Virus record (IMG/VR): IMGVR_UViG_3300044613_002635
Location: 1-52,885 of that record
Source of the DNA: a virus
Reading direction: 5' to 3' (one strand)
DNA length: 52,885 bases
The notes beneath the pieces are model-generated. The model did not search any database, was not told where the DNA came from, and saw nothing but the letters and a program-made list of their open reading frames with translations. Both the position numbers and the translations under genes were made by a program. Below are positions 3,744-52,215 of this stretch, piece by piece. Each line of letters opens with the position of its first letter. Position 1 is the stretch's first letter.

Positions 3744-3824
3744 GGCGTCCGATAACGTCCTGTCCGGGCTACTATCAGGTGGCGCATAAAAATCAGCGGC
3801 CCCCGGGGGCCGCTGATAGTAGCC
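3744..3824 (-). repeat. Structured repeat element E1 with terminator hairpin
   Basis: On the minus strand there is GGCTACTATCAG, then an uninterrupted palindromic stem (ATCAGCGGCCCCC and its complement, 3792-3817), then TTTTTATG, a spacer, CTGATAGTAGCC (3767-3778) and GGACGTTATCGGACGCC. The hairpin plus T run makes a rho-independent terminator for the 4864-3834 operon. The outer GGCTACTATCAG/CTGATAGTAGCC repeats could pair instead of the inner stem. Confidence 0.7.
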
Positions 3825-5247: not shown

Positions 5248-5340
5248 GGCGTCCCATAACGTCCAGGTGCGGTGGGCTACTATCACGCGCCGTCCTATAA
5301 TAAAATCAGGCAGGTCCTAGGACCTGCCTGATAGTAGCTC
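5248..5340 (-). repeat. Structured repeat element E2 with terminator hairpin
   Basis: This is the same plan as E1: inner stem ATCAGGCAGGTCC-TA-GGACCTGCCTGAT (5305-5332), followed on the minus strand by TTTTATT, then the outer repeat TGATAGTAGCC (5275-5285) and CGTTATGGGACGCC. The stem sequence differs from E1 but pairing is perfect. It abuts the stop codon of the 5339-5479 gene and probably ends that operon. Confidence 0.7.
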
Positions 5341-7960: not shown

Positions 7961-8827
7961 TTATTTTTTAGGAGCAATACTTTGCATCAGTCTTCTTGCC
8001 ACATTTTGTCTAATTTGATCCATTGGTGTTGTTTTGGTAAATGGATTCCAATCTTGTTCTGCATCTGAACGTTCAATTTCTGAACGTACTGCTCTGACAG
8101 CTGCTGGAGATATATCTGATGCGGCACCTGCTTGAGTAATATTTCCACTGCTATATGGAAGTCCTGCTTGATTATTTGTTGGATATCCGCCTTGATCGAA
8201 ATCACCCAATTGTGTTCTTTTTTCAGAATATCTTGTACCTTGTCTTGCAGAGAGTTCTCTCTGTGCTTGTTTTTGCGCCGCCAAATCAAGTTCCTTACTG
8301 ATTAAAAGATCTCCTTGTCTTTTATAATCAACTTCGCGGAAAGGTCCTTGTACGTCGTGTGCCTGAACATGCATTCTTCCAAGATTTGCTGGTTTGGATG
8401 CAGCATCATCGATATATGGCATTTTTTCAGTTGTGCCAGGTAAAGTTAATGAACCTCGCTCTGTTCCTATTAAAGTTGATTTTACCTTTCCTGTACTTGG
8501 ATCTACATCACCGCTTCTATAAACACCTACATTACCAGCAGAATTTCTTCCTACTACTCTAGATGGTGCAGGTTCTTCCATATCTCCTAAAGTAGAATAA
8601 TCTTGATCTCTTGGAAGTACTCTTGGATCTTCTTGCATTTCAGGACTGCCCGCAGCACCAACTGAAACATATTTTTCTTCTTCTGGTGTTAGATTGACAT
8701 TACTTGGAACTGATAAACGCCCTCCAGCAGTGTATACTGTTCTGGAGTTTTCTTTATTTTGAGCTTCTAAAATTTGTTTAGCAGCGTCTTGAAGATTGTT
8801 GGAGAAAAATTGGTAGTCTTTAAACAT
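7961..8827 (-). CDS. 288-aa predicted capsid-internal protein
   Basis: The start is ATG 8827 (MFKDYQFFSNNLQDAAKQ), placed exactly five bases after TATAAATA. The N-terminal 21 residues form an amphipathic leader ending in ILE before AQNKEN, matching the gp21 protease rule (L/I)-x-E. The rest is polar, Gly/Pro/Asp-rich and repeat-poor (PGTTEKMPYIDDAASKPAN), with no known enzyme motif. Together with 8918, 9587, 10260 and 14324 it forms a set of proteins with cleavable leaders. I infer that it is packaged in the head, as T4 internal proteins are. Confidence 0.65.
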   Translation of the reverse strand: MFKDYQFFSNNLQDAAKQILEAQNKENSRTVYTAGGRLSVPSNVNLTPEEEKYVSVGAAGSPEMQEDPRVLPRDQDYSTLGDMEEPAPSRVVGRNSAGNVGVYRSGDVDPSTGKVKSTLIGTERGSLTLPGTTEKMPYIDDAASKPANLGRMHVQAHDVQGPFREVDYKRQGDLLISKELDLAAQKQAQRELSARQGTRYSEKRTQLGDFDQGGYPTNNQAGLPYSSGNITQAGAASDISPAAVRAVRSEIERSDAEQDWNPFTKTTPMDQIRQNVARRLMQSIAPKK

Positions 8828-8832
8828 GGAAA

Positions 8833-8840
8833 TATTTATA
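8833..8840 (-). promoter_or_regulatory. T4-type late promoter, leaderless geometry
   Basis: TATAAATA on the minus strand, TTTCC, ATG (8827). Confidence 0.75.
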
Positions 8841-8917: not shown

Positions 8918-9274
8918 TTATGCTCTGCGGATTTCGCTCTTGTTGACCTTAATGGCTTTCCCGGTCGTATAGATGTTATTTTTATCAGCATCACCACTGG
9001 CTAGTTCTTGTGCATGATGAATTTCAGTCTGTTTAGATTCTCCGGGAATTGCGCGTCCTGGTTCAATATCGACTTGTCTGCCACGCTTTGCACCCTTGCC
9101 TTTGGCAAGACGGCCTTGAAGAGTTGGAATATCTTCACCCTCTTCTCTTTCTGCGTCATCAATGATTACATCTTCAGTTTTTCTTTGAGCTTCTAAAATT
9201 GCTTGATTTAAAAAATTGACTTTTTCTTGAAGTTGCTCAGATAGGTTCTTGTAATAGTTGGTTAGGTAATTCAT
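8918..9274 (-). CDS. 118-aa predicted capsid-internal protein
   Basis: ATG 9274 lies five bases after TATAAATA. It begins MNYLTNYYKNLSEQLQEK; the first 17 residues are identical to those of the 9587-10258 protein, while the remaining parts share nothing obvious. LQE at 15-17 fits gp21 cleavage. The predicted mature part is charged and flexible (GRLAKGKGAKRGRQ; HHAQELASGDADKN). A common leader on different cargo is what a capsid-targeting signal should look like. Confidence 0.65.
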   Translation of the reverse strand: MNYLTNYYKNLSEQLQEKVNFLNQAILEAQRKTEDVIIDDAEREEGEDIPTLQGRLAKGKGAKRGRQVDIEPGRAIPGESKQTEIHHAQELASGDADKNNIYTTGKAIKVNKSEIRRA

Positions 9275-9279
9275 AAAAA

Positions 9280-9287
9280 TATTTATA
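9280..9287 (-). promoter_or_regulatory. T4-type late promoter, leaderless geometry
   Basis: TATAAATA on the minus strand, TTTTT, ATG (9274). Confidence 0.78.
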
Positions 9288-10259: not shown

Positions 10260-10799
10260 TTAGTTCTTTCTTCCTTGTTTGAAGAAACTAGCAGCCATTT
10301 CTGCTGGAGTAGGGAATAACTTGCTGCCTCTCAATATTGGTTGCTGACGGATTGCAGCGGCTCTGGGATCGGTTCCCATGCTTCTTATTGCTGCGTCTGT
10401 TTTGACTTCTAGGGCGCTTCCTGTAGTGTCTGCGTCCATTGGGCTGTCCGAAGCATCAGGAGACATATCAACATTCCTTCCAGTAGCAATAGCCTTTCTC
10501 ATGTCAGAGATGTCGGCCATTCCTTCTTCTGGGAAATCGGTGCCATAGACACCCTTGTATCTTTCCTTGGCAGCACGGTTGGCGGCTCTTGCAGCCTCTA
10601 CCTTTTCGCTTCCGGGAGAAGGCATGCCGGTGTCCTTGATGTCAGCAGCAACACGAATAAGAGATGGATCTTTGGATCCCTCAATATTCTTTAGCAAAGA
10701 TGCACGCTTTGCTGCGGCTTCTGGGCTTCTGCCTCTGGCGAGCATTTGCTCTGGGCTATAAATTTCTGCTTCTTGTAAATATTCCTTGAATGATTTCAT
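10260..10799 (-). CDS. 179-aa predicted capsid-internal protein with T4 Ip-like leader
   Basis: The start ATG 10799 lies five bases after TATAAATA. The leader MKSFKEYLQE-A closely matches the T4 internal-protein leader as I recall it (MKTYQEFIAE-A), including the (L/I)-x-E cut. The mature part is Ala/Arg-rich and helical (SPEAAAKRASLLKNIEG; KVEAARAANRAAKERYKG) and could bind DNA. No enzyme motif is visible. It would be cut by gp21 during head maturation and perhaps injected with the DNA. Confidence 0.7.
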   Translation of the reverse strand: MKSFKEYLQEAEIYSPEQMLARGRSPEAAAKRASLLKNIEGSKDPSLIRVAADIKDTGMPSPGSEKVEAARAANRAAKERYKGVYGTDFPEEGMADISDMRKAIATGRNVDMSPDASDSPMDADTTGSALEVKTDAAIRSMGTDPRAAAIRQQPILRGSKLFPTPAEMAASFFKQGRKN

Positions 10800-10804
10800 A
10801 AAAA

Positions 10805-10816
10805 TATTTATAAATA
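10805..10816. promoter_or_regulatory. Palindromic bidirectional late promoter
   Basis: TATTTATAAATA reads TATAAATA on both strands (overlap of four bases). Minus: five bases then ATG 10799. Plus: TTTCC then ATG 10822. Both start codons lie at predicted +1. Confidence 0.75.
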
Positions 10817-10821
10817 TTTCC

Positions 10822-11040
10822 ATGTATAATAAAAATAATGGAAAATCACTAGAAGAAACCATTCGGTTATTACATAAAAAATATAAAAATGCTCCAAGTC
10901 CTCTAAAAAATTTGTCTGAGCATAATGTTGGGTTTACACCAACACAAATACCAGATAATATGAGACCTCTAGAAGATCTTAGAGCTGGACTATTAGATAA
11001 TTTTAAACCATCTAATAATACTTTTGGTAGTTATTATTAA
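10822..11040 (+). CDS. 72-aa protein of unknown function
   Basis: The start ATG 10822 is chosen because it lies five bases after TATAAATA; an upstream in-frame ATG at 10786 would lie inside the opposite gene. The sequence MYNKNNGKSLEETIRLLHKKYKN is helical and basic, followed by a Pro-rich part. LEE at 10-12 might be a gp21-type cut, but this is weak. The function is unknown. Confidence 0.6.
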   Translation: MYNKNNGKSLEETIRLLHKKYKNAPSPLKNLSEHNVGFTPTQIPDNMRPLEDLRAGLLDNFKPSNNTFGSYY

Positions 11041-11163
11041 AGATACTTAAGATACTATTTTATAGTTTAATTTATATTACTATAGATAACCTATAGTTAT
11101 CTGTCAGTATTTAATTTTCTGTAAGAATATCACAGTACTTTTATTAGTCAAATAAATACTTTT
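11041..11163 (+). promoter_or_regulatory. Intergenic region with late promoter ATAAATA
   Basis: ATAAATA (11152-11158), CTTTT, ATG 11164: leaderless geometry. An AGATAAC/GTTATCT hairpin lies near 11090. Nothing else is seen. Confidence 0.65.
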
Positions 11164-11412
11164 ATGATTACCGAGACTTCCAAACTTCTCACGACTTACA
11201 TTACTTTAAGTCCGGATCAAAAGCAACAAGACCCATTGATAATAAAAAAATTAATGGAAAAAATAAAATCAAAACAACGTGAGCCATTTGCAAAAATTTT
11301 TGTAACTTTGCATCCTATGTTTTTACCTGCAGTTTTACATTCTTTAAACACAAACAAAATTAATATCAAGAATATGGGTTCAGACAAAAAAGTTTTTAGC
11401 ATAGAACTATAA
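11164..11412 (+). CDS. 82-aa protein of unknown function
   Basis: ATG 11164 lies at predicted late +1. The protein is helical and Lys-rich (LIIKKLMEKIKSKQREPF) with a hydrophobic centre (KIFVTLHPMFLPAVLHSL). The stop overlaps the ATG of the next gene (TAATGG). No family is recognised. Confidence 0.65.
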   Translation: MITETSKLLTTYITLSPDQKQQDPLIIKKLMEKIKSKQREPFAKIFVTLHPMFLPAVLHSLNTNKINIKNMGSDKKVFSIEL

Positions 11413-15382: not shown

Positions 15383-15757
15383 ATGAATATAGACCACGTG
15401 ATTGAAAATTATCTTCCTATTGCCAAGCCTTTGTCGATGGCGATGGAAAGACAAAAAAAGCATATCTCGTTGGTGATATATAAGCGCAAAATTATCGCGG
15501 TGGGTCAAAATGTGTTCAAGACCCACCCCGATACTGTGCGTTTGGGATATAGATGTGCAGACATGCATTCTGAGTTGGATGCTTATAGAAAAGTTCCAAA
15601 ATCATTGCGTGGTGAAAAGTTGGTTCTTCTTAACTTTAGATTCAACCGTTTTGGCAATTTTAGAAACTCCAAGCCGTGTCCTGTGTGTGCCAAGTGGTGT
15701 GGTGAAGTATTTCATAAAATTTATTATACCGATGATAACGGTATTCAAGTTATATAA
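15383..15757 (+). CDS. Cytidine/dCMP deaminase-like protein (124 aa)
   Basis: ADMHSELDAYRKVP and SKPCPVCAKWCG give the HxE ... PCxxC zinc-deaminase signature: His60 region, Glu as proton shuttle, and two Cys. The length fits the deaminase fold. The substrate (dCMP, cytidine or an RNA base) cannot be told. It follows the Sm-like gene by three bases and is probably cotranscribed. Confidence 0.75.
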   Translation: MNIDHVIENYLPIAKPLSMAMERQKKHISLVIYKRKIIAVGQNVFKTHPDTVRLGYRCADMHSELDAYRKVPKSLRGEKLVLLNFRFNRFGNFRNSKPCPVCAKWCGEVFHKIYYTDDNGIQVI

Positions 15758-15760
15758 ATA
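15753..15760 (+). promoter_or_regulatory. Late promoter TATAAATA, leaderless geometry
   Basis: TATAAATA, TTTTT, ATG 15766. It overlaps the stop of the deaminase-like gene. Confidence 0.75.
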
Positions 15761-15765
15761 TTTTT

Positions 15766-15975
15766 ATGGCACGAGGTAAAATTCAAAATAAAAAGAAAAA
15801 ACCAACTGAATGTGCCAGTTATTATTTTGTGGCTCATGTAGATTCTACAGGAGAGGTAACCCCTCTCCTTCTAACCGATCCTGAATATCGTAAAGCACAA
15901 AAAAGAGCTGAACGAAATCCAGAAGATGTACCAGAAGATTTTATAACTTTTTCACAACAACACAGGAAACATTAA
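15766..15975 (+). CDS. 69-aa basic protein of unknown function
   Basis: The sequence starts MARGKIQNKKKKPTECASYYF, then a short beta-like part, then charged helix (YRKAQKRAERNPEDVPEDF). No family is recognised. The start codon lies at predicted late +1; the stop overlaps the next ATG. Confidence 0.6.
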   Translation: MARGKIQNKKKKPTECASYYFVAHVDSTGEVTPLLLTDPEYRKAQKRAERNPEDVPEDFITFSQQHRKH

Positions 15976-17672: not shown

Positions 17673-17680
17673 TATAAATA
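17673..17680 (+). promoter_or_regulatory. Late promoter TATAAATA of the giant gene
   Basis: TATAAATA, 17 bases, ATG 17698, with GGTGAG as a possible Shine-Dalgarno site. Confidence 0.65.
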
Positions 17681-17697
17681 CATGGTGAGATCTTATT

Positions 17698-20600
17698 ATG
17701 CCTAAAAAATTATGTTGCTGTGATGTTGCTGTTGATGACTATTGTTTAACAAATCAATTTGTTACAATATTTGGACCTTTATTAGACAGTGCCGTACCTG
17801 TTTCATCTGGTGATTTAATTTCTTTAAAAATTAATAGACCCGAATCAAAAACAAGAAATAAAGAATTATCACATCGTCTCGATGATTTCGGCGCCCAACC
17901 TTGTCCATCGTGTTGTACGCCATGTGCTGTTGAGGCATGTCAGGACTGTCCTTTAGTTTCTGTATGTGAGAATAATAGATGTACGGGTCCTCAAGAAGGT
18001 CAAGAGCCATATATTGCCTCTGGAGCTGGAAGAAGTGAGTATGGTAAACCATGCATAAGATGTTGTTCTTCGTGTGGAGGTGATCAAGACGGAGATAAAG
18101 GACCCGATAATGAGAATCCTCCTCCATTGCTACGCCAAGCAACTACAGTATTTTTAGACAATTCTCCATTTAATGTTTCACGAATGTTTAAAAAATTATT
18201 CAATCGTGGAACACAAACACCAATGGAATATGGCACATCTTACAATATTAAAACTTTTGAAGAGATGGCCCAAGAAAATATTAAAAAAGCACAAAAAAAT
18301 AATTTAATTAATTCAAATATAAATTTAAATTCAAATCAAGTTAATTCACCCATAATAGTTCGTTCATCAAATGAAATATTTAAAAATAAATTAGATAATT
18401 TATATCCTGCCTGCAAAGAATGTTTAATTGAAAATGGATATGATATTGATTGTATAAGAAATAATTCACCAAATTGTGTAAATAAAAATATTGATTTTTG
18501 TAAAAATTGTAAAAAAGAATGCGAAGCATATTGTAGTCCTTATTTTGGAGACACTATAAATCAACAAAGAAATATAAGTAATTTATTTGGTTTGCCAATT
18601 TATACTACAAATTATGATTTAGCAAAAGGTTCAACTTTTAATAATTCAGATTTATATCTTGGAAATATATTGGTAAATGGAACTGGTTTGATTAAAAAAA
18701 TAGATCCATTGGAAACCAGTCTAGATCAGTCAAGAAGTTTATTAGCTGGTGGTGCTGAAACAGATGCTTTTTATGGGCCGGAAGTGGATGGTCCAGATAC
18801 GGTTCCAGCAGATGATCCAAACGAACCATTTAAATTAGCTCAAAGTTGCTTGCCTTATAGTTGTTCAGTATGTAATTTCAATGGTGGTGCTCCTGGATCT
18901 GATCCATTATATTTTATATATCGATATGCTGGATGTCACATGGTGTGGTATCCACCAGAATATATTTTTAATTATCAATTAAAAATTCCACAAGGGTCAG
19001 CATATTATAAAAAGCAACGAGTAATTAATTCAGATGGTATAGGATCAATGAGAGACCTATTAAAAAGTTGTGATTTTTTAATAAGTGCGGGTGGCCACCA
19101 AGAAGATGGTAATGTAAGCGGAATTGAACGAAATTGTTCTGGCAATTATTTTAATGATGGTCAGGCTTGCAGCCAAGGAGGATGTCAATGTCGTGACGCC
19201 ACAACATATCCATGTCAGTGTATGCGATTTCCACATTTAAGTGGTGGATTTACAGATACGGTTAAAAAAAGATTTAATGTCTCACAAAGAATTAATCAAG
19301 GAGGGTATATTCCTTCACTTGATCCATTTTTACCAAAAATGTATGTACAAGAAGCAGGTTGCTGTTCTTGTGCCAATACATCAGGTACGCCTCCATATAC
19401 TGCATGTAATCCTGGATTTGATATTATAAGAAATAAAAGATCAGAATGGCCAAGAGCAAGTGGTAATGGAAAATCTCCTCCTACATTAGGACAATTTTGT
19501 AATGTTGATCAAAATCAAAATCAAGATAATGGTCCATTCTACAATCCAAGATATAATAAAGCATGTTTTGAAAGAGGAATATCTCCATATTTAAGTAGAA
19601 TATCTCAAAAATTATTTGTTGCTGCCAGAGACATATTCCATTATGGATCAGTCGATCCTAAAAAACAAGAAATATTAGGTCCATTTTACACATCAACTAT
19701 ACTGCAACCAAGACCTTTTGGTTGGAGTAGGGCTGGGTTTAAAAAGACTTTTAATAAAAAAAGCAATTTATTTCATAAAATGGTTGGTTTAATTGGAATG
19801 GACCATCATTTTGAATGCTGGGCATATCACAGCAAAGCTTTATTTACACCTGCTCCACCAATAGCAATGAATCATTGTAATATGTTGATTACTCCATATG
19901 AAAAACCTTATGGAGGAGAGTGGACTGAAAGAAATTTTACTTATGATCCAAGAGAAGCATTTAGATATCAAGCTATGCGGCATTTCCCACGCAGAGTTAT
20001 GTATGGATCTTCAGTTATTCCGTTATTTCATTCTGATTTGCATGCTATGGAAGAACTTTCTGAAGCCAAAGAGATTAAAGTAAATGGTGACGTTTTTGAC
20101 GGCGAAAGATTTTTAGAAGCATTTTATCTTTATTTTTATAATAGAATTACAGATCCAGGAGATACACTATACGCAGAACCAGCAATAGAACAATCAGATG
20201 TAGATCAATATGATTATGTATCTTCTTGGTTAAAGGAAATGATAAAAGCCAATGTCATAAGTGTTAAAGATCATGCCGACGACATTGGTAAAGAATTGAT
20301 AGAATTATTAGATGGTGTATATCTAGAACCAATAGATCCAGAACATCCACCCATCGATAATCGTCCTGATCCAGACTTTATTGATGACACTACTGAATCA
20401 TTTTTAGGTAATAAAGCTGGCTATTATGAAATGATTGATTGGTTAAAGACTAATATTTTAGCACAATATCCAGAAGCAAATTTTTCTAATACAGATTATT
20501 TTACTATATGGGCGGCAATGAAACCGTATATAACGGCCAAATTCATAAAAAATGTTTTAATAAATCCACTCCAAGATAATTTGGTTACTAGAATTCCTGG

Positions 20601-23600
20601 CCCAATGTTTGCTGGTCCACGTAGAGCAAAATTGTGGCCATGCCCCAATTCAGCTGGTTTAACAAGCTGGGGGTGTACCGGCACTAATGCATGTTATGAC
20701 AAAGAAAATGTTTTAAATGTTATAACAAATCAAGATCCAGATAACTTATTAGAATATAATAAATTGTTTGGTGGACAACAAACATGGTTTGCTATAACAA
20801 ATAATGGAAAAGTTAGAGCATTTGGACGAGGAGCAATACCCCCCAGCGGCAATGATGATCCTACAGAAATAGGTTGTTCACCAGATTATGCATATGAATG
20901 TGATGTTGAACCTTCCTGCCCCGCACCTGATCATTCTCCAATATGTGATGGATCTTATTATGATACAGATGTTGGAGCTGTACCATGTCATTTATCAGTA
21001 TTACCTGAACTTGGAATATTATATGATGAAGACCAGGCAAATAATACTCTTCCAGATGGAATAGTACAAAAAATATCCAGTAAAGGAAACTTTGCTGTAG
21101 CTTTGGTGGAATATCAAGAAGGTGTTGTTCCTGGTATAGCTTTATGGCATACAAATCAAAATTGTAATCAAATAAATTATCGTAGAAAGAAATTTTCAAA
21201 TTCTGGATGGGAAATAGGTGGAGCACCAATTTATGAATTCCCACCTTATTCATTTACCTGTGCTGACACAGATAATGCTGACGTTTATACTTTGAAAGCG
21301 TGGGGCAAAGGAAATAATGGGGATGATGATGCTGATATTGATTATGGAATTTTTTATAATGATACGCGTTATGTTAGTGATTACACTCAACCAAATTGTA
21401 ATCCTTTAGCTGTTGGATTTATTAATAGTCTTAATAATAAATTTTTTATATGGAAAGATGTGGCATGTGGAGCCAAGCATACCATTGCCATAATATCTGG
21501 TGGTTATTTGTTTGCAACGCCAACCAGCGACAATACGTATAACCAATCATCATATGGTTATCCAACAATATCAGGAAAAAGAGAGCTTGATGAAGATAGG
21601 GCTACTCAACGTCTAAGTGCTTCAATTGGATCTGAACCATTATTTTATTATTATAATCTTCCAAAACCAGGATACTTTACAGAAGATGAATGGAATACTT
21701 TATTTCCTAGAAATTCTTTTCAAACTTTACCAGAAAATAAAGATTGGTGGAATAGAACTTATTGTGCAAATCTAAATGAACCAAACGATGAATCGTGGAG
21801 TGCAGGAGAAAATGCTATTCCATGTGATATTAGATGTCAACTCTTTGTACTAAACCAGAGTGGTGAGAGGGTGTCTTTGCTAACAGAACGTGGCAATCCA
21901 TGTGGTGCAGCCTATGGATATAGTTGTCTAAAAGCCATTGAGCCAGATTTTCCCGTATACACAAAAGTTGCAGCTGGCCATTATCATAGTATTGCATTAT
22001 CTGATGATAATAATTTAAAAATATGGGGATCATATGTAAAAGTAGATGAAAACGGGGAACCGGTAACTGGAGAAACTAGTTTTACAAGCACAGATCCTAT
22101 ACCTGTATTTTTACCAGATAGTGAAATATTTAAAGATGAATGGATACTTGGACCTGTTGGGGGAGTAACTGGATGCCATGATTCGTATGCACGTGCGCCA
22201 GCCGAAGCCCCGGAGGGGTATGACCACTCAAAATATAAAGTATACACAACAGCCGACAAAACTGTTTATAGTTCTGCCAGTATCTTTGCAATAGATGGTG
22301 GTCCAGATTATAGTATTATGGCACGTAAAGCCGGAGACAAACATAGATTAGTTGTATGGGGAAATTCTGAAATGGTAAAAGCAGTATCTGGTGTTACTTA
22401 TTCTGGTCTTACTGCTTTTTATGGAAAAAATTATGATGTAATAGATGAAATTGTTGCTGGACCAAATGCCATTGGTGTTATTTGGAAAAGAAAGAATTCT
22501 CCTAAGAAAAGACTTGATATATTTCAAAGACCAGATGCCGATAGAGGACTTACTATTGGAATTGATAAAAATCGATATAGTGATATTTGTTTTACAGCTG
22601 GAAGTGTCTCTGCAATTTTTTCAAGTGGATTAAAAGCCCAAGAATGGAAGGCGTCGTCTTTTGATATAGACCATGCCAAATTACAATTTAAAAATTTTAA
22701 TAATTTACCTTTATATTTTAAAACCCAAGCATTCTTCAGAGCAGTTCCTGGAAGATGGGATTTTTCAAAATGGCTTTTTGGTATGCCCTGCAATCAAATA
22801 GGTACTGATGTAGCAGAAAATGTTGTTGGTAACCCAGATTATACCAGTCCATATTATACTGTAGCCAGAGATGTAGAAAGATCTTACAGTGGACATCCAC
22901 AATATTATTGGATGAGACCAGATCAAAGACGAAAACAACAAGCCACACCTTTGCATACTTATGAACCATATCCCGGTAAGGTGTGTGGCATGATGCGAGA
23001 TAGATTTGGTAGAGATGGTTTGAGACCACAAGATGAATTTGGTGGGGGTGGTGATCCAAATGGTCCAATGGCTTCTGCAAATAGAGCATTAAATAATGAA
23101 TTGGGTGGCTGTTATGGTGGAGATATATGTTGGGTTGGTGATGGTAGTCCATCGTCTTTTGCATATTATTCAGAGGGTTATAGTCCCCCAGCAGTATGTC
23201 CACGGCCCAGTCCATATTGTGTATGTAATGAGTTGGAATGTGGATGTCCACCGGGTAAAAGATGGCCGCAAGTAGTTGATTGTAGTGCGGGTCCTTTTGG
23301 AAATCGAAGTTGTTTTGCTTATGTTAATAATAGAATAGGATTTTACAATAATAAAGATTATTTTGTGCAATCTTCAAAATCATTTGGTCAAATTTCGGAG
23401 GCTGGATCTGGTATAGGATTAGGATATTGTTGTGGTGTAATTAAAACAAATATTACTGCATTCTTTTACGCTAAAAGAAATTATTATTATGGTTATAATG
23501 AAGAAACATCTTTATATGAAGTTCAAAATGCACCTCTACCATATAGATCTCACTTTGTGGGAGCTTTATATCCAGAACCGGGTAAATCATATGGAATGAC

Positions 23601-24549
23601 TTCTTCGGAACTTGTTAATGCAATAATGACACCAAGAAATGCAATTTTAACAGCATATACTGTTCAGTCTGCATTTCCTTATCCCTATGTATTTCTTGGT
23701 GGCCGAGTACTTAAAAAATTGCAATTAAACTTGGAAATAGCTGTGGTAGAACCTGGTTGCGACAGATGCAATCCTCCACCTCCAGATTCTCCGTGTTATA
23801 CAGAGACTAAGTGTGGTTATCCTCCGGGTGGCGATATATGTCGAGCAAGCGTAGGAAATCTAGTTGGACCAGGGGGGTGGGTTAATACTTATGGTCGGGA
23901 TATATGTAATGATGGATCACCTCTTCAAATAACAATAGGAGGGGCGATGAACGATTCTATCAATGGTGATCTTAATTCTATGCTATACCTAGAGACCTGT
24001 AAAACCGATCAATGGCTTGGACCATTAGTTTCCTTTACAGGTTACACAGGTCCACTTCCACCAGGAATGACTATCACTTGTAATTGTTGGTGTGGCGACA
24101 ATACATCTTTTACATCATCTGATCGACCTTGTAGTTGTTCCAGAGATCAATATCCTTCAGGAAGTTGTCCGAACAATGATCGTTCGTGTCCTGGATGTAA
24201 ATTTTGTTGTAAATTAAATGAAAATTTAATATATCAGATAGATACAGAAAGTTCTATAGATGATCCTAAATTCTATTATCCAGCAGATAAACGTTTACCA
24301 GGAATGGGTGACAATGATGAAAGCATACCCGTTGGATTTATTGGTGGATTATGGAGAATATATGAAGAAATACCTTCATCGTATAATTCTTTAGGATGCA
24401 CGGGTTATACTTTAGGAGCACCACAGTGTTTCTTAGGACTTGAGGGATTAACAAATCCTGGAAAATTTAATGCAAAATGTGATTCTGGTGTTCCAGTTGG
24501 TAGAGTATCTGCCATTGAATGTGTTGAAGTACAAAGATCACAGGAATGA
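17698..24549 (+). CDS. Giant Cys-rich virion-type protein with RCC1-like region (2283 aa)
   Basis: The first 200 residues and the last 250 are crowded with Cys pairs (CCSCANTSG, CSRDQYPSGSCPN, CPGCKFCCK). The middle, about 1020-1580, has repeated units like FAITNNGKVRAFGRG, VACGAKHTIAIISGGYLFAT, VAAGHYHSIALSDDNNLKIWGS and HRLVVWGNSE, which is the RCC1 beta-propeller pattern. No signal peptide or enzyme motif is seen. A late promoter and structural-gene neighbours suggest a tail fibre or other surface protein. The Cys richness could mean metal sites or disulphides; this is inference. It is the largest gene in the window. Confidence 0.7.
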   Translation: MPKKLCCCDVAVDDYCLTNQFVTIFGPLLDSAVPVSSGDLISLKINRPESKTRNKELSHRLDDFGAQPCPSCCTPCAVEACQDCPLVSVCENNRCTGPQEGQEPYIASGAGRSEYGKPCIRCCSSCGGDQDGDKGPDNENPPPLLRQATTVFLDNSPFNVSRMFKKLFNRGTQTPMEYGTSYNIKTFEEMAQENIKKAQKNNLINSNINLNSNQVNSPIIVRSSNEIFKNKLDNLYPACKECLIENGYDIDCIRNNSPNCVNKNIDFCKNCKKECEAYCSPYFGDTINQQRNISNLFGLPIYTTNYDLAKGSTFNNSDLYLGNILVNGTGLIKKIDPLETSLDQSRSLLAGGAETDAFYGPEVDGPDTVPADDPNEPFKLAQSCLPYSCSVCNFNGGAPGSDPLYFIYRYAGCHMVWYPPEYIFNYQLKIPQGSAYYKKQRVINSDGIGSMRDLLKSCDFLISAGGHQEDGNVSGIERNCSGNYFNDGQACSQGGCQCRDATTYPCQCMRFPHLSGGFTDTVKKRFNVSQRINQGGYIPSLDPFLPKMYVQEAGCCSCANTSGTPPYTACNPGFDIIRNKRSEWPRASGNGKSPPTLGQFCNVDQNQNQDNGPFYNPRYNKACFERGISPYLSRISQKLFVAARDIFHYGSVDPKKQEILGPFYTSTILQPRPFGWSRAGFKKTFNKKSNLFHKMVGLIGMDHHFECWAYHSKALFTPAPPIAMNHCNMLITPYEKPYGGEWTERNFTYDPREAFRYQAMRHFPRRVMYGSSVIPLFHSDLHAMEELSEAKEIKVNGDVFDGERFLEAFYLYFYNRITDPGDTLYAEPAIEQSDVDQYDYVSSWLKEMIKANVISVKDHADDIGKELIELLDGVYLEPIDPEHPPIDNRPDPDFIDDTTESFLGNKAGYYEMIDWLKTNILAQYPEANFSNTDYFTIWAAMKPYITAKFIKNVLINPLQDNLVTRIPGPMFAGPRRAKLWPCPNSAGLTSWGCTGTNACYDKENVLNVITNQDPDNLLEYNKLFGGQQTWFAITNNGKVRAFGRGAIPPSGNDDPTEIGCSPDYAYECDVEPSCPAPDHSPICDGSYYDTDVGAVPCHLSVLPELGILYDEDQANNTLPDGIVQKISSKGNFAVALVEYQEGVVPGIALWHTNQNCNQINYRRKKFSNSGWEIGGAPIYEFPPYSFTCADTDNADVYTLKAWGKGNNGDDDADIDYGIFYNDTRYVSDYTQPNCNPLAVGFINSLNNKFFIWKDVACGAKHTIAIISGGYLFATPTSDNTYNQSSYGYPTISGKRELDEDRATQRLSASIGSEPLFYYYNLPKPGYFTEDEWNTLFPRNSFQTLPENKDWWNRTYCANLNEPNDESWSAGENAIPCDIRCQLFVLNQSGERVSLLTERGNPCGAAYGYSCLKAIEPDFPVYTKVAAGHYHSIALSDDNNLKIWGSYVKVDENGEPVTGETSFTSTDPIPVFLPDSEIFKDEWILGPVGGVTGCHDSYARAPAEAPEGYDHSKYKVYTTADKTVYSSASIFAIDGGPDYSIMARKAGDKHRLVVWGNSEMVKAVSGVTYSGLTAFYGKNYDVIDEIVAGPNAIGVIWKRKNSPKKRLDIFQRPDADRGLTIGIDKNRYSDICFTAGSVSAIFSSGLKAQEWKASSFDIDHAKLQFKNFNNLPLYFKTQAFFRAVPGRWDFSKWLFGMPCNQIGTDVAENVVGNPDYTSPYYTVARDVERSYSGHPQYYWMRPDQRRKQQATPLHTYEPYPGKVCGMMRDRFGRDGLRPQDEFGGGGDPNGPMASANRALNNELGGCYGGDICWVGDGSPSSFAYYSEGYSPPAVCPRPSPYCVCNELECGCPPGKRWPQVVDCSAGPFGNRSCFAYVNNRIGFYNNKDYFVQSSKSFGQISEAGSGIGLGYCCGVIKTNITAFFYAKRNYYYGYNEETSLYEVQNAPLPYRSHFVGALYPEPGKSYGMTSSELVNAIMTPRNAILTAYTVQSAFPYPYVFLGGRVLKKLQLNLEIAVVEPGCDRCNPPPPDSPCYTETKCGYPPGGDICRASVGNLVGPGGWVNTYGRDICNDGSPLQITIGGAMNDSINGDLNSMLYLETCKTDQWLGPLVSFTGYTGPLPPGMTITCNCWCGDNTSFTSSDRPCSCSRDQYPSGSCPNNDRSCPGCKFCCKLNENLIYQIDTESSIDDPKFYYPADKRLPGMGDNDESIPVGFIGGLWRIYEEIPSSYNSLGCTGYTLGAPQCFLGLEGLTNPGKFNAKCDSGVPVGRVSAIECVEVQRSQE

Positions 24550-36243: not shown

Positions 36244-36251
36244 TATAAATA
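36244..36251 (+). promoter_or_regulatory. Late promoter TATAAATA, leaderless geometry
   Basis: TATAAATA, TTATT, ATG 36257 (gene 25). It overlaps the previous stop codon. Confidence 0.78.
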
Positions 36252-36256
36252 TTATT

Positions 36257-36637
36257 ATGGCGCTCAAAGATTTTTCAATATTATTAGAAAAAGTTAATTC
36301 CAAATCTTCTAAAAAAGATATTGGTATGGTGAGCGGATTTAATGCTTATTCTCAATATATTGAAAATGTTCTCAAAACACAAAAAGGTGAACTTGTTTCC
36401 AATATGAATTTGGGATCAGATTATTTTAGTTATATTTTTTCTGGTCAGGCTCAAGTAGGTCCACTGGAATCTGGTTTGGCCGCATATATAGAATCTGCTA
36501 TTCCAGTAATGAATAATGTTAAAGTTAGATTGGAATATGCATCTGATACTCAATTTCAATTTTTTATAACATATTCATTAAATAATGGAATTAATGGGCA
36601 ATCAAATTCTAGCACAACGATAGAGGTAGAACTATAA
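36257..36637 (+). CDS. gp25: gp25 baseplate wedge protein (126 aa)
   Basis: ENVLKTQKGELVSNMNLGSD then YFSYIFSG is the conserved gp25 core ('i...l.T..Ge...n..fG......lf'). VRLEYASDTQFQFFITYSLN is the final strand pair. Length matches T4 gp25 (132). gp25 forms the wedge core with gp6 and gp7. Start 36257 is chosen from the promoter; the longer frame overlaps the upstream gene. Confidence 0.88.
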   Translation: MALKDFSILLEKVNSKSSKKDIGMVSGFNAYSQYIENVLKTQKGELVSNMNLGSDYFSYIFSGQAQVGPLESGLAAYIESAIPVMNNVKVRLEYASDTQFQFFITYSLNNGINGQSNSSTTIEVEL

Positions 36638-38354: not shown

Positions 38355-38807
38355 ATGTTTAATAAGATGATAATGTTTGCGGCATCGTTGGCATCCAGAG
38401 GATTGGGAAACAAAAAAACTGACTTACAAACAAAACAACTCAGAGTTTTGTCTTGTTTTGGTGGTTTGGAAGTCAATACCCCTTGTCCTTATTTAAAAGA
38501 AAGTTCAGTTGAACCACAAAAATATTTTTGTAATAAATGTGGCTGCGGTGACAAAAAGCATACTTGGTTGATGCAAAATAATGAAGAATATTCAAAATTA
38601 GATTATCCTGTATTAAATTGTCCACTTAAAATGCCAGGATTTAGTAATTATGATCCAAATCATAAACCAGCCGAAATAAGAGATAGAAAAGAACAAATAG
38701 AACAAATAGATCCTGAAAACTTACAATATATTCAAGTTACATTGGGAGCAAGTGAAGAAAAAGAGAGAATTATAGATCAAGTAAATAAAATAATAGAGAA
38801 TACATAA
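38355..38807 (+). CDS. Cys-rich conserved protein (150 aa), zinc-binding type
   Basis: LRVLSCFGGLEVNTPCPYLK, YFCNKCGCGDKKHTWLM and LNCPLKMPGFSNYDPNHKP contain seven Cys arranged as CPY.K ... CxxCxC ... C, probably one or two zinc sites. I recall similar proteins in other marine T4-like phages but no function. It lies between wedge and neck genes. Confidence 0.6.
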   Translation: MFNKMIMFAASLASRGLGNKKTDLQTKQLRVLSCFGGLEVNTPCPYLKESSVEPQKYFCNKCGCGDKKHTWLMQNNEEYSKLDYPVLNCPLKMPGFSNYDPNHKPAEIRDRKEQIEQIDPENLQYIQVTLGASEEKERIIDQVNKIIENT

Positions 38808-38810
38808 ATA
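38804..38810 (+). promoter_or_regulatory. Late promoter ATAAATA, leaderless geometry
   Basis: ATAAATA, TTTGT, ATG 38816 (gene 13). It overlaps the preceding stop. Confidence 0.72.
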
Positions 38811-38815
38811 TTTGT

Positions 38816-39646
38816 ATGGCTATAACCACCCGACAGGATTTTATCAATTATGCATTTAGAAAACTGGGTGCCCCAGTACTTCAAATAAACATAGATCCTC
38901 AACAAGCTGAAGATCGTTTAGATGAATCTTTGGAGTATATGCATGAACGTCATTTTGACTTTAATCAACGTGCACAGTTTGTTGTTCCGATTACACAAGA
39001 TAATATAACTGGCAAATATTTTGATGTAACAAAATTTGGATACGCAGTTGGAGCTCAAGGCGTAACTTCAAGTACAAGCGGAAGCACTGCATACTGGCCA
39101 GCTGCATCTGACATTCGAACCATTAGTCAGGTTTATAGTCCAAATAGTACCGTTGGCGATTATATGTTTGATTTGAGATATCAAATGACACTATTTGATT
39201 TCTTTGGTTTATATTTTAACCAAGGTGGTCTATCACAAGGACCAATGGCTTCATATATGGAAAGTATGCAGTACCTTAGTTTAATAAATGATGTGTTTAA
39301 TTATCCTGTATCATTTACATATACAAAAACAACAAATAGATTATTTTTAGAAGTAAAAGATTCTAGAATGGACCATATAAATTTTCTTATGGTCGAAGCA
39401 TATGTTCAAGTTAATCCAGATTATTATATAAAGGCATGGGATGATCGCATCTTCCAAAGGCATTATACGGCATTACTTAAAAAACAATGGGCGCAAAACT
39501 TAATAAAGTTTACAGGAATGCCATTGCCTGGTGGTGCATCACTAAATGCTGCAGCAATAATGCAAGATGCCGTCAAAGAATTAGAAGTAATAGAACAAAT
39601 GCTGTTGAAGACTCAAGAACTTCCAGTTGATCCAATGATCGGATAA
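38816..39646 (+). CDS. gp13: gp13 neck protein (276 aa)
   Basis: FINYAFRKLGAPVLQINIDP followed by QQAEDRLDESLEYMHERHFD is the conserved gp13 start. AYVQVNPDYYIKAWDDRIFQ with YTALLKKQWAQNLIKFTGMP is the C-terminal signature. Length is near T4 (309). gp13 and gp14 form the neck that joins head and tail after packaging. Confidence 0.92.
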   Translation: MAITTRQDFINYAFRKLGAPVLQINIDPQQAEDRLDESLEYMHERHFDFNQRAQFVVPITQDNITGKYFDVTKFGYAVGAQGVTSSTSGSTAYWPAASDIRTISQVYSPNSTVGDYMFDLRYQMTLFDFFGLYFNQGGLSQGPMASYMESMQYLSLINDVFNYPVSFTYTKTTNRLFLEVKDSRMDHINFLMVEAYVQVNPDYYIKAWDDRIFQRHYTALLKKQWAQNLIKFTGMPLPGGASLNAAAIMQDAVKELEVIEQMLLKTQELPVDPMIG

Positions 39647-47485: not shown

Positions 47486-47646
47486 AAAACAACATCCGCC
47501 AAATGATCAAAAATGTAGTACAAGAAAACGCCGTATCCTTTAAAAATGAAACCTCAAAGGTTCTTTATAACAAGGTAGGGCAACGTCTACAAGAACAGTA
47601 CAAAACTGTTGCCAAAACCATTTTAGGCAAGAAAGAACAAGAATGA
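47482..47646 (+). CDS. Small prohead core-like protein (54 aa)
   Basis: The sequence starts MKNNIRQMIKNVVQENAVSF and continues with NETSKVLYNKVGQRLQEQYK. It is a basic helix similar in type to the N-terminus of the previous protein (a helix, then '...s..l..kv...l.e..k'). It overlaps the upstream and downstream genes by ATGA on both sides. Its place between portal and protease genes suits gp67 or gp68. Confidence 0.65.
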   Translation: MKNNIRQMIKNVVQENAVSFKNETSKVLYNKVGQRLQEQYKTVAKTILGKKEQE

Positions 47647-48290
47647 AGCTAATCACGGAACTAACAGAAGACATCAAGTACATCAAAGAGAATGTAGGAA
47701 ATGGTGAAAAGACCTACTTCATTGAAGGTGTCTTCATGCAATCTGGCGTAAAAAACCGCAATGGCCGCATATATCCACAAGGCACTTTATTAAAAGAGTG
47801 CAAGCGTTATATCAATGAGTATGTTGACAAAGGTCGTGCATTGGGTGAATTGAATCATCCAACTGGCCCAACAGTCAATCTTGACCGAGTATCCCATATT
47901 GTCAAAGAACTTCATGAAGATGGTCAAAACATCTATGGTAAAGCTAAAGTTTTAGATACCCCAATGGGAAAGATTGTAAAAAATCTTATCGATGAGGGTG
48001 CACAGCTTGGTGTATCAACTCGTGGTATGGGTTCTCTAAAAGCTAAGAATGGTTACCAAGAAGTTCAAGAAGACTTTATGTTGGCCGCTATTGATATCGT
48101 TGCCGATCCATCTGCTCCAAATGCCTTTGTAAACGGTATCATGGAAGGCAGAGAATGGATGTTTGTTGAAGGATCGTGGCAAGAAAGAGAAGCTGCCGAA
48201 GCAAGAAAACTTATTAAAACATCACCTTCCAGACTTCTTAATAGAAATATTGTCAACGTATTTGAAGAATATTTTCGTAAAATAAAATAA
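47643..48290 (+). CDS. gp21: gp21 prohead protease (215 aa)
   Basis: GVFMQSGVKNRNGRIYPQGT, ALGELNHPTGPTVNLDRVSH (catalytic His), then GAQLGVSTRGMGSLKAKNGY (catalytic Ser) and AAIDIVADPSAPNAFVNGIM are all conserved in T4 gp21. Length is the same (212). It cleaves core and shell proteins after (L/I)-x-E; likely targets in this window carry that motif near their N-termini. Confidence 0.95.
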   Translation: MKLITELTEDIKYIKENVGNGEKTYFIEGVFMQSGVKNRNGRIYPQGTLLKECKRYINEYVDKGRALGELNHPTGPTVNLDRVSHIVKELHEDGQNIYGKAKVLDTPMGKIVKNLIDEGAQLGVSTRGMGSLKAKNGYQEVQEDFMLAAIDIVADPSAPNAFVNGIMEGREWMFVEGSWQEREAAEARKLIKTSPSRLLNRNIVNVFEEYFRKIK

Positions 48291-51676: not shown

Positions 51677-51678
51677 GG

Positions 51679-51685
51679 ATAAATA
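51679..51685 (+). promoter_or_regulatory. Late promoter ATAAATA, leaderless geometry
   Basis: ATAAATA, ATTTT, ATG 51691. Confidence 0.7.
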
Positions 51686-51690
51686 ATTTT

Positions 51691-52215
51691 ATGAGCTGCA
51701 ATTCAAACATCAATCCACTTTACAACAGTTATTTTACCTTAGTCTTTGGAAGAGGTACAAAGCAGTTTGAATTGAATTGCCAGAGAGTCAATCTTCCCGG
51801 ATGCACCGTACCAGACACAGCACAACCTACAATTTTTGGAACAACGGTACCAGTTCCAACTATGCAATTTAACTATGAAACTTTAAATGTAGAATTTATA
51901 GTTGATTCAAGATTGGAAAATTGGAAGAGTTTATATTCGTGGATGCGCAATTTGGCAAATATTGAAAACGACGACCAAAACAATATCAAATATCAAGATT
52001 GGCACAGAAGTGCAAATTTATTAATATACGATCCAACATCAACTTGTACAAATTTAACAGTAACTTTTAAATATATTGTTCCAACAAATTTAAGTGGAGT
52101 TATATTTCAATCAGATAGTGCTGATGCGATTTTGCAAAAAGCAAGTTGTAAATTTAAATTTTCGTATTATACGTTAGATCCTGATGCCCCCGATGATCTG
52201 ACAAATCAAGTTTAA
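51691..52215 (+). CDS. Tail tube-like/baseplate-type protein (174 aa)
   Basis: YFTLVFGRGTKQFELNCQRV, then NLPGCTVPDTAQPTIFGTTV, LNVEFIVDSRLENWKSLYSW and CKFKFSYYTLDPDAPD follow the tube-fold order ('f.v.......f...v..v..P.......p......g......y..l.v.f.vd....nw..i..w'). It would be the fourth tube-fold protein of the window. The role is unknown; the family fit is fair. Confidence 0.6.
   Translation: MSCNSNINPLYNSYFTLVFGRGTKQFELNCQRVNLPGCTVPDTAQPTIFGTTVPVPTMQFNYETLNVEFIVDSRLENWKSLYSWMRNLANIENDDQNNIKYQDWHRSANLLIYDPTSTCTNLTVTFKYIVPTNLSGVIFQSDSADAILQKASCKFKFSYYTLDPDAPDDLTNQV

Follow-up and report, generated by a model that had tools for sequence, protein, structure and literature searches.

A shared palindromic late-promoter box is predicted to start two divergent leaderless genes in a T4-like phage

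The 12-bp palindrome TATTTATAAATA, located between two divergent genes in a 52,885-bp stretch of viral DNA from IMG/VR (record IMGVR_UViG_3300044613_002635; hereafter, the window), is most probably a bidirectional gp55-type late promoter that has been compacted until both of its messages are leaderless. The palindrome is identical on both strands and lies exactly where the sequence-only reading had placed it. Divergent ATGs stand 5 bp outside the core (10797-10799 on the minus strand and 10822-10824 on the plus strand), and an interval of 22 bp (10800-10821) separates the two genes, both as described earlier. The length of the palindrome, however, had been given too short, since the 12-bp core is real but lies within a perfect dyad of 18 bp. 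The core holds two opposite TATAAATA sequences, which qualify as late-promoter boxes with tolerance at position -13; they overlap by 4 bp, and the central TATA (10809-10812) is common to both. Under Markov models of order 1-3, the 12-mer is expected 0.02-0.12 times per window, and the composite CAT-N5-palindrome-N5-ATG was found in none of 600 windows simulated with Markov models. Coordinates of the features are collected in Table 1.

The window encodes T4-type portal, major capsid, terminase, scaffold and prohead protease proteins as well as tail genes, and no direct DNA similarity between it and cultured phages was found. The gene for the late sigma factor gp55 is absent from the window, which is an incomplete genome fragment; gp55 is encoded by the relatives G002, G003, G006, G018 and G020, and gp55 and/or gp23 are encoded by most of the larger contigs carrying the palindrome. 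Late (virion) genes are preceded by N5 promoters in the window, namely the neck, tail-tube-like and baseplate-like genes. In addition, an ORF of 2283 aa (17698-24549, within 17673-24549) has TATAAATA at 17673-17680, 17 nt before its ATG, as in an ordinary leader. Two perfect GC-rich palindromes of 26 and 28 bp (ATCAG...CTGAT) were also seen at 3792-3817 and 5305-5332. They have a common framing, ATTTGGCGTCC...AACGTCC...CTACTATCA...AAAATCAG...CTGATAGTAG, and form a repeated intergenic element.

Table 1. Features of the palindromic locus and single late promoters elsewhere in the window
Feature	Position	Strand	Remark
72-aa gene, SLE[DE]xI...KNxPSPL family, seen only in environmental phages	10822..11040	+	43 homologous loci
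179-aa gene, N-terminus MKSFKEYLQEA, capsid-targeting-leader-like, [LI]xE prohead-protease site	10260..10799	-	likely internal head protein
Perfect 18-bp palindrome AAATATTTATAAATATTT	10802..10819	.	core TATTTATAAATA 10805-10816 kept upstream of many plus-gene homologues
Late-promoter box TATAAATA, plus-strand gene	10809..10816	+	-13 to -6 (position from PMC1524935)
Late-promoter box TATAAATA, minus-strand gene	10805..10812	-	-13 to -6 (position from PMC1524935)
Predicted +1, A of ATG	10822..10822	+	spacer TTTCC; N5 spacing peak, pyrimidine/A step
Predicted +1, A of ATG	10799..10799	-	spacer TTTTT; N5 spacing peak, pyrimidine/A step
Single leaderless late promoter AATAAATA-N5-ATG (predicted)	11151..11166	+	before next plus gene 11164-11412
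Single leaderless late promoter TATAAATA-N5-ATG (predicted)	8825..8840	-	
Single leaderless late promoter TATAAATA-N5-ATG (predicted)	9272..9287	-	
Single leaderless late promoter (predicted)	15753..15768	+	
Single leaderless late promoter (predicted)	36244..36259	+	before baseplate-wedge-like gene
Single leaderless late promoter CATAAATA (predicted)	38803..38818	+	before head-tail adaptor (neck) gene
Single leaderless late promoter GATAAATA (predicted)	51678..51693	+	before tail-tube-like gene

The late box of T4 spans -13 to -6 (PMC1524935), so that an ATG placed five bases beyond such a box puts +1 on the A of the start codon. Exactly this spacing was found for 9 of the 22 late boxes in the window, and NATAAATA-N5-ATG was observed 9 times against 0.6-0.75 expected under Markov models. 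Box-to-ATG spacings have their peak at exactly 5 in the window (9/13), in G002 (8/21), in G003 (9/24) and in the pelagiphage HTVC008M (9/18). In contrast, the spacing is absent from T4 and Syn9 and occurs once in S-PM2; in these three phages the ATG almost always lies at least 10 nt past the box, and mostly 17-36 nt. In larger sets the spacing is bimodal: it falls either at 5-9 or from about 15 upward, and values of 10-14 are almost missing. Such a split would be expected of messages that either lack a leader or leave enough space for one. The base at -1 was a pyrimidine in 86 of 87 N5 promoters of the window's clade (99%), compared with 50% at 636 other starts, and in about 95% of the 168 N5 promoters of the palindrome set; both ATGs at the palindrome (10799, minus; 10822, plus) are likewise preceded by a pyrimidine. 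A pyrimidine/purine step is typical of bacterial transcription start sites. Furthermore, ATAAATA-NNNNY-ATG occurred 58 times in 8 records, and the reversed-pattern control did not occur. Within the stretch checked, the annotated gene starts of HTVC008M match the N5 positions; in that genome (NC_020484), ATAAATA-N5-ATG is present at nine places, before neck, baseplate and other genes. Note that a Shine-Dalgarno comparison was left out of the evidence because the box fills the same bases, which biases it. Taken as a strong inference from sequence, late mRNAs appear to start on the A of the ATG. A survey of the open-access literature turned up no previous account of leaderless late transcripts in T4-like phages; one candidate (PMC9004378) was discarded, as the word "leaderless" stands there only in a reference title.

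The same layout recurs well beyond the window; the sequence-only reading had missed both its generality in this phage group and its presence in T4. CAT-N5-TATTTATAAATA-N5-ATG was present in 112 IMG/VR stretches, a number that includes related contigs; of the 80 fetched, 73 were flanked on each side by an ORF of 50 aa or longer. Together with the window, the N5/N5 loci represent 17 distinct unrelated gene-family pairs. By comparison, an N6/N6 control gave 12 stretches, with both ORFs in 2. The N4/N4 arrangement gave 46 stretches with both ORFs in 34, mostly from a separate jumbo-phage group, and its frequency means that N5 spacing is not universal. Members of this group (L142-L187; for example G026 of 291 kb and G027 of 411 kb) have the N4/N4 palindromic promoter and only weak gp55 matches; in large phages, a diverged sigma factor may go along with a changed spacing. 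The earlier proposal of two overlapping opposite late promoters, each with an ATG at +1, is supported by the box position known from T4, by the pyrimidine/A step and by this recurrence.

We then consider the genes on either side, both of which are evidently real genes. The plus-strand gene, whose presence in relatives was essential to the reading, was found at 43 homologous loci in IMG/VR, and its product has 15 invariant residues among seven diverse members; tblastn against 50,697 cultured phage records returned no match. The palindrome core, for which conservation in relatives had been suggested as a check, is kept in well over a dozen plus-gene homologues. Several of these homologues have, at the same 22-bp spacing, a divergent partner that opens with a [DN]YLxxYYKN leader instead, a leader type that also opens the neighbouring minus genes in the window (9274, 10258). 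L008 and L275 retain the palindrome, but their minus gene diverges after the MKSFK leader and begins 53 bp away from the plus ATG. The palindrome, or any late box at all, is missing from some plus-gene homologues (L311 and L312, in an operon). The changed partners indicate a module made up of promoter and leader, around which partners are exchanged. For the minus-strand gene, one homologue that is 89% identical was found (L007), in which the differences fall mostly on third codon positions (16/6/41); it has an N5 late box of its own, without the palindrome. Searches of Pfam and PHROGs gave nothing above threshold for either gene.

The leader of the minus-gene product contains an [LI]xE cleavage site (MKSFKEYLQE|A), and a gene for a gp21-type protease is present in the window (47643-48290). 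A short N-terminal [LI]xE leader, diverse bodies and a gp21-type protease are shared with the internal proteins of T4 (PMC3012670, PMC9391042). However, the body of the minus-gene product has no detectable homology to any family. The minus gene likely encodes an internal head protein. Across N5 gene families, [LI]xE lies within residues 5-26 in 48%, compared with 23% of other families, suggesting capsid-targeted internal proteins as the products of many N5 genes. As a further observation, the leader M[DN]YLxxYYKNLxEQLQE occurs on diverse bodies and in tandem copies, both in the window (9274 and 10258, minus strand) and in L276-L278, L286, L293, L306 and L314; these are candidate capsid-targeted cargo leaders.

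The palindrome is also found in T4 itself. The T4 genome (NC_000866) has one TATTTATAAATA, at 116450-116461, exactly between the divergent genes 26 and 51, so that in T4 and in the window the same 12 bp lie between divergent late genes. It is kept in Merlin (Moonvirus), Kpn6N (Jiaodavirus), UGJNEcP2 (Mosigvirus) and ECML-359 (Gaprivervirus), and is absent in G37-3 (Krischvirus); five Tevenvirinae genera, including that of T4, therefore retain the 12-mer despite diverged flanks. More generally, the window shares with T4 late promoters (gp55/gp33/gp45) the TATAAATA box, an A/T-rich downstream segment and late structural genes. On the other hand, the T4-type 26/51 locus has 16-24 nt between box and ATG with a Shine-Dalgarno-like sequence on both sides, whereas the window has 5 nt and no such sequence. 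The conservation at 26/51 indicates that the two-way box is an old device of the T4 family, of which the doubly leaderless form is a variant here. No prior description of the shared palindrome at T4 26/51 was found in the open-access literature.

Could two ordinary late promoters simply have come to overlap in an AT-rich, gene-dense genome, with the two-way form itself unselected? The window has many single N5 promoters, partner genes vary around the same palindrome, and a form with an overlap of 2 (TATTTATATAAATA) is real although rarer than N5/N5 (33 stretches, both ORFs in 25), all of which would fit such an origin. However, 17 unrelated gene pairs use the palindrome, five genera keep the 12-mer while its flanks diverge, and gapped box pairs, among the matches listed, amount to at least 81 sites (28 with both ORFs), none with N5 on both sides. 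We thus regard coincidental overlap as unlikely, while noting that compaction could be the selective cause, in which case this explanation merges partly with the preferred one. It is still harder to maintain that one box works and the other half is drift or a vestige, with the second gene read from elsewhere. The minus box of L008 is the case that speaks for it: no ATG lies at N5 from this box, and the minus gene begins well past it, indicating that a strict double N5 is not required. Against it, an N5 ATG and an ORF of at least 50 aa are found on both sides in the window and in 73 of the 80 fetched stretches, and a pyrimidine precedes both window ATGs, making this explanation very improbable. 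That the palindrome serves a dimeric repressor as operator, or forms a hairpin or terminator, as the perfect 18-bp dyad might suggest, is hardly credible: in the fetched loci palindromy mostly does not extend beyond the 12-bp core, the core is an exact fusion of two late boxes and the ATG spacing is fixed. The palindrome also lacks G-C pairs and was not flagged as a terminator, and this reading was rejected.

Under the preferred reading, that of a bidirectional late promoter, host RNA polymerase carrying a gp55-type late sigma would bind the symmetric box in either orientation, and initiation would take place on the A of the ATG, 6 nt beyond each box. The products would be leaderless mRNAs for the small conserved gene (plus) and the internal-head-protein-like gene (minus), and we infer that both strands are transcribed and both messages translated without a leader. 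Since the predicted starts are 23 bp apart, the element would hold one polymerase at a time; judged from this geometry, mutual exclusion would be unavoidable where simultaneous occupancy is concerned. The recurrent, conserved layout would fit two late genes placed back to back.

This arrangement resembles the bidirectional promoters of bacteria described by Warman and Grainger, in which a symmetric -10-type element directs opposite starts 7-25 bp, usually 18 bp, apart (PMC10268837, PMC12825309). In both systems, the element is symmetric and read two ways, and one binding event excludes the other; in the window, too, the two directions share a box, and the predicted opposite starts (10799/10822), at 23 bp against the usual 18 bp, fall within that range. 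The window differs in that a late phage sigma, not sigma70, would be used, and in that both transcripts are coding and predicted to be leaderless. For the bidirectional promoters of E. coli, such competition has an effect only if one of the two directions is strong (PMC12825309). In T4, the polarity of the sliding clamp selects the direction that is activated (PMC2988020), which makes testable a more speculative and rather doubtful idea, namely that replication reads the palindrome as a direction switch, at which the polarity of clamps left by the fork, and not the DNA sequence, would pick the gene.

A large group of T4-like phages, most of them uncultured, together with HTVC008M, apparently expresses many late genes from leaderless mRNAs, and this sets the group and HTVC008M apart from T4 and the cyanophages. 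Late-promoter prediction in the cyanophage style was unsuccessful in pelagimyophages (PMC7029224), and the N5 leaderless layout may help to explain that failure. The symmetric two-way late promoter recurs at many unrelated gene pairs and is kept in T4, where genes 26 and 51 provide a laboratory model for the choice of direction by polymerase and sliding clamp.
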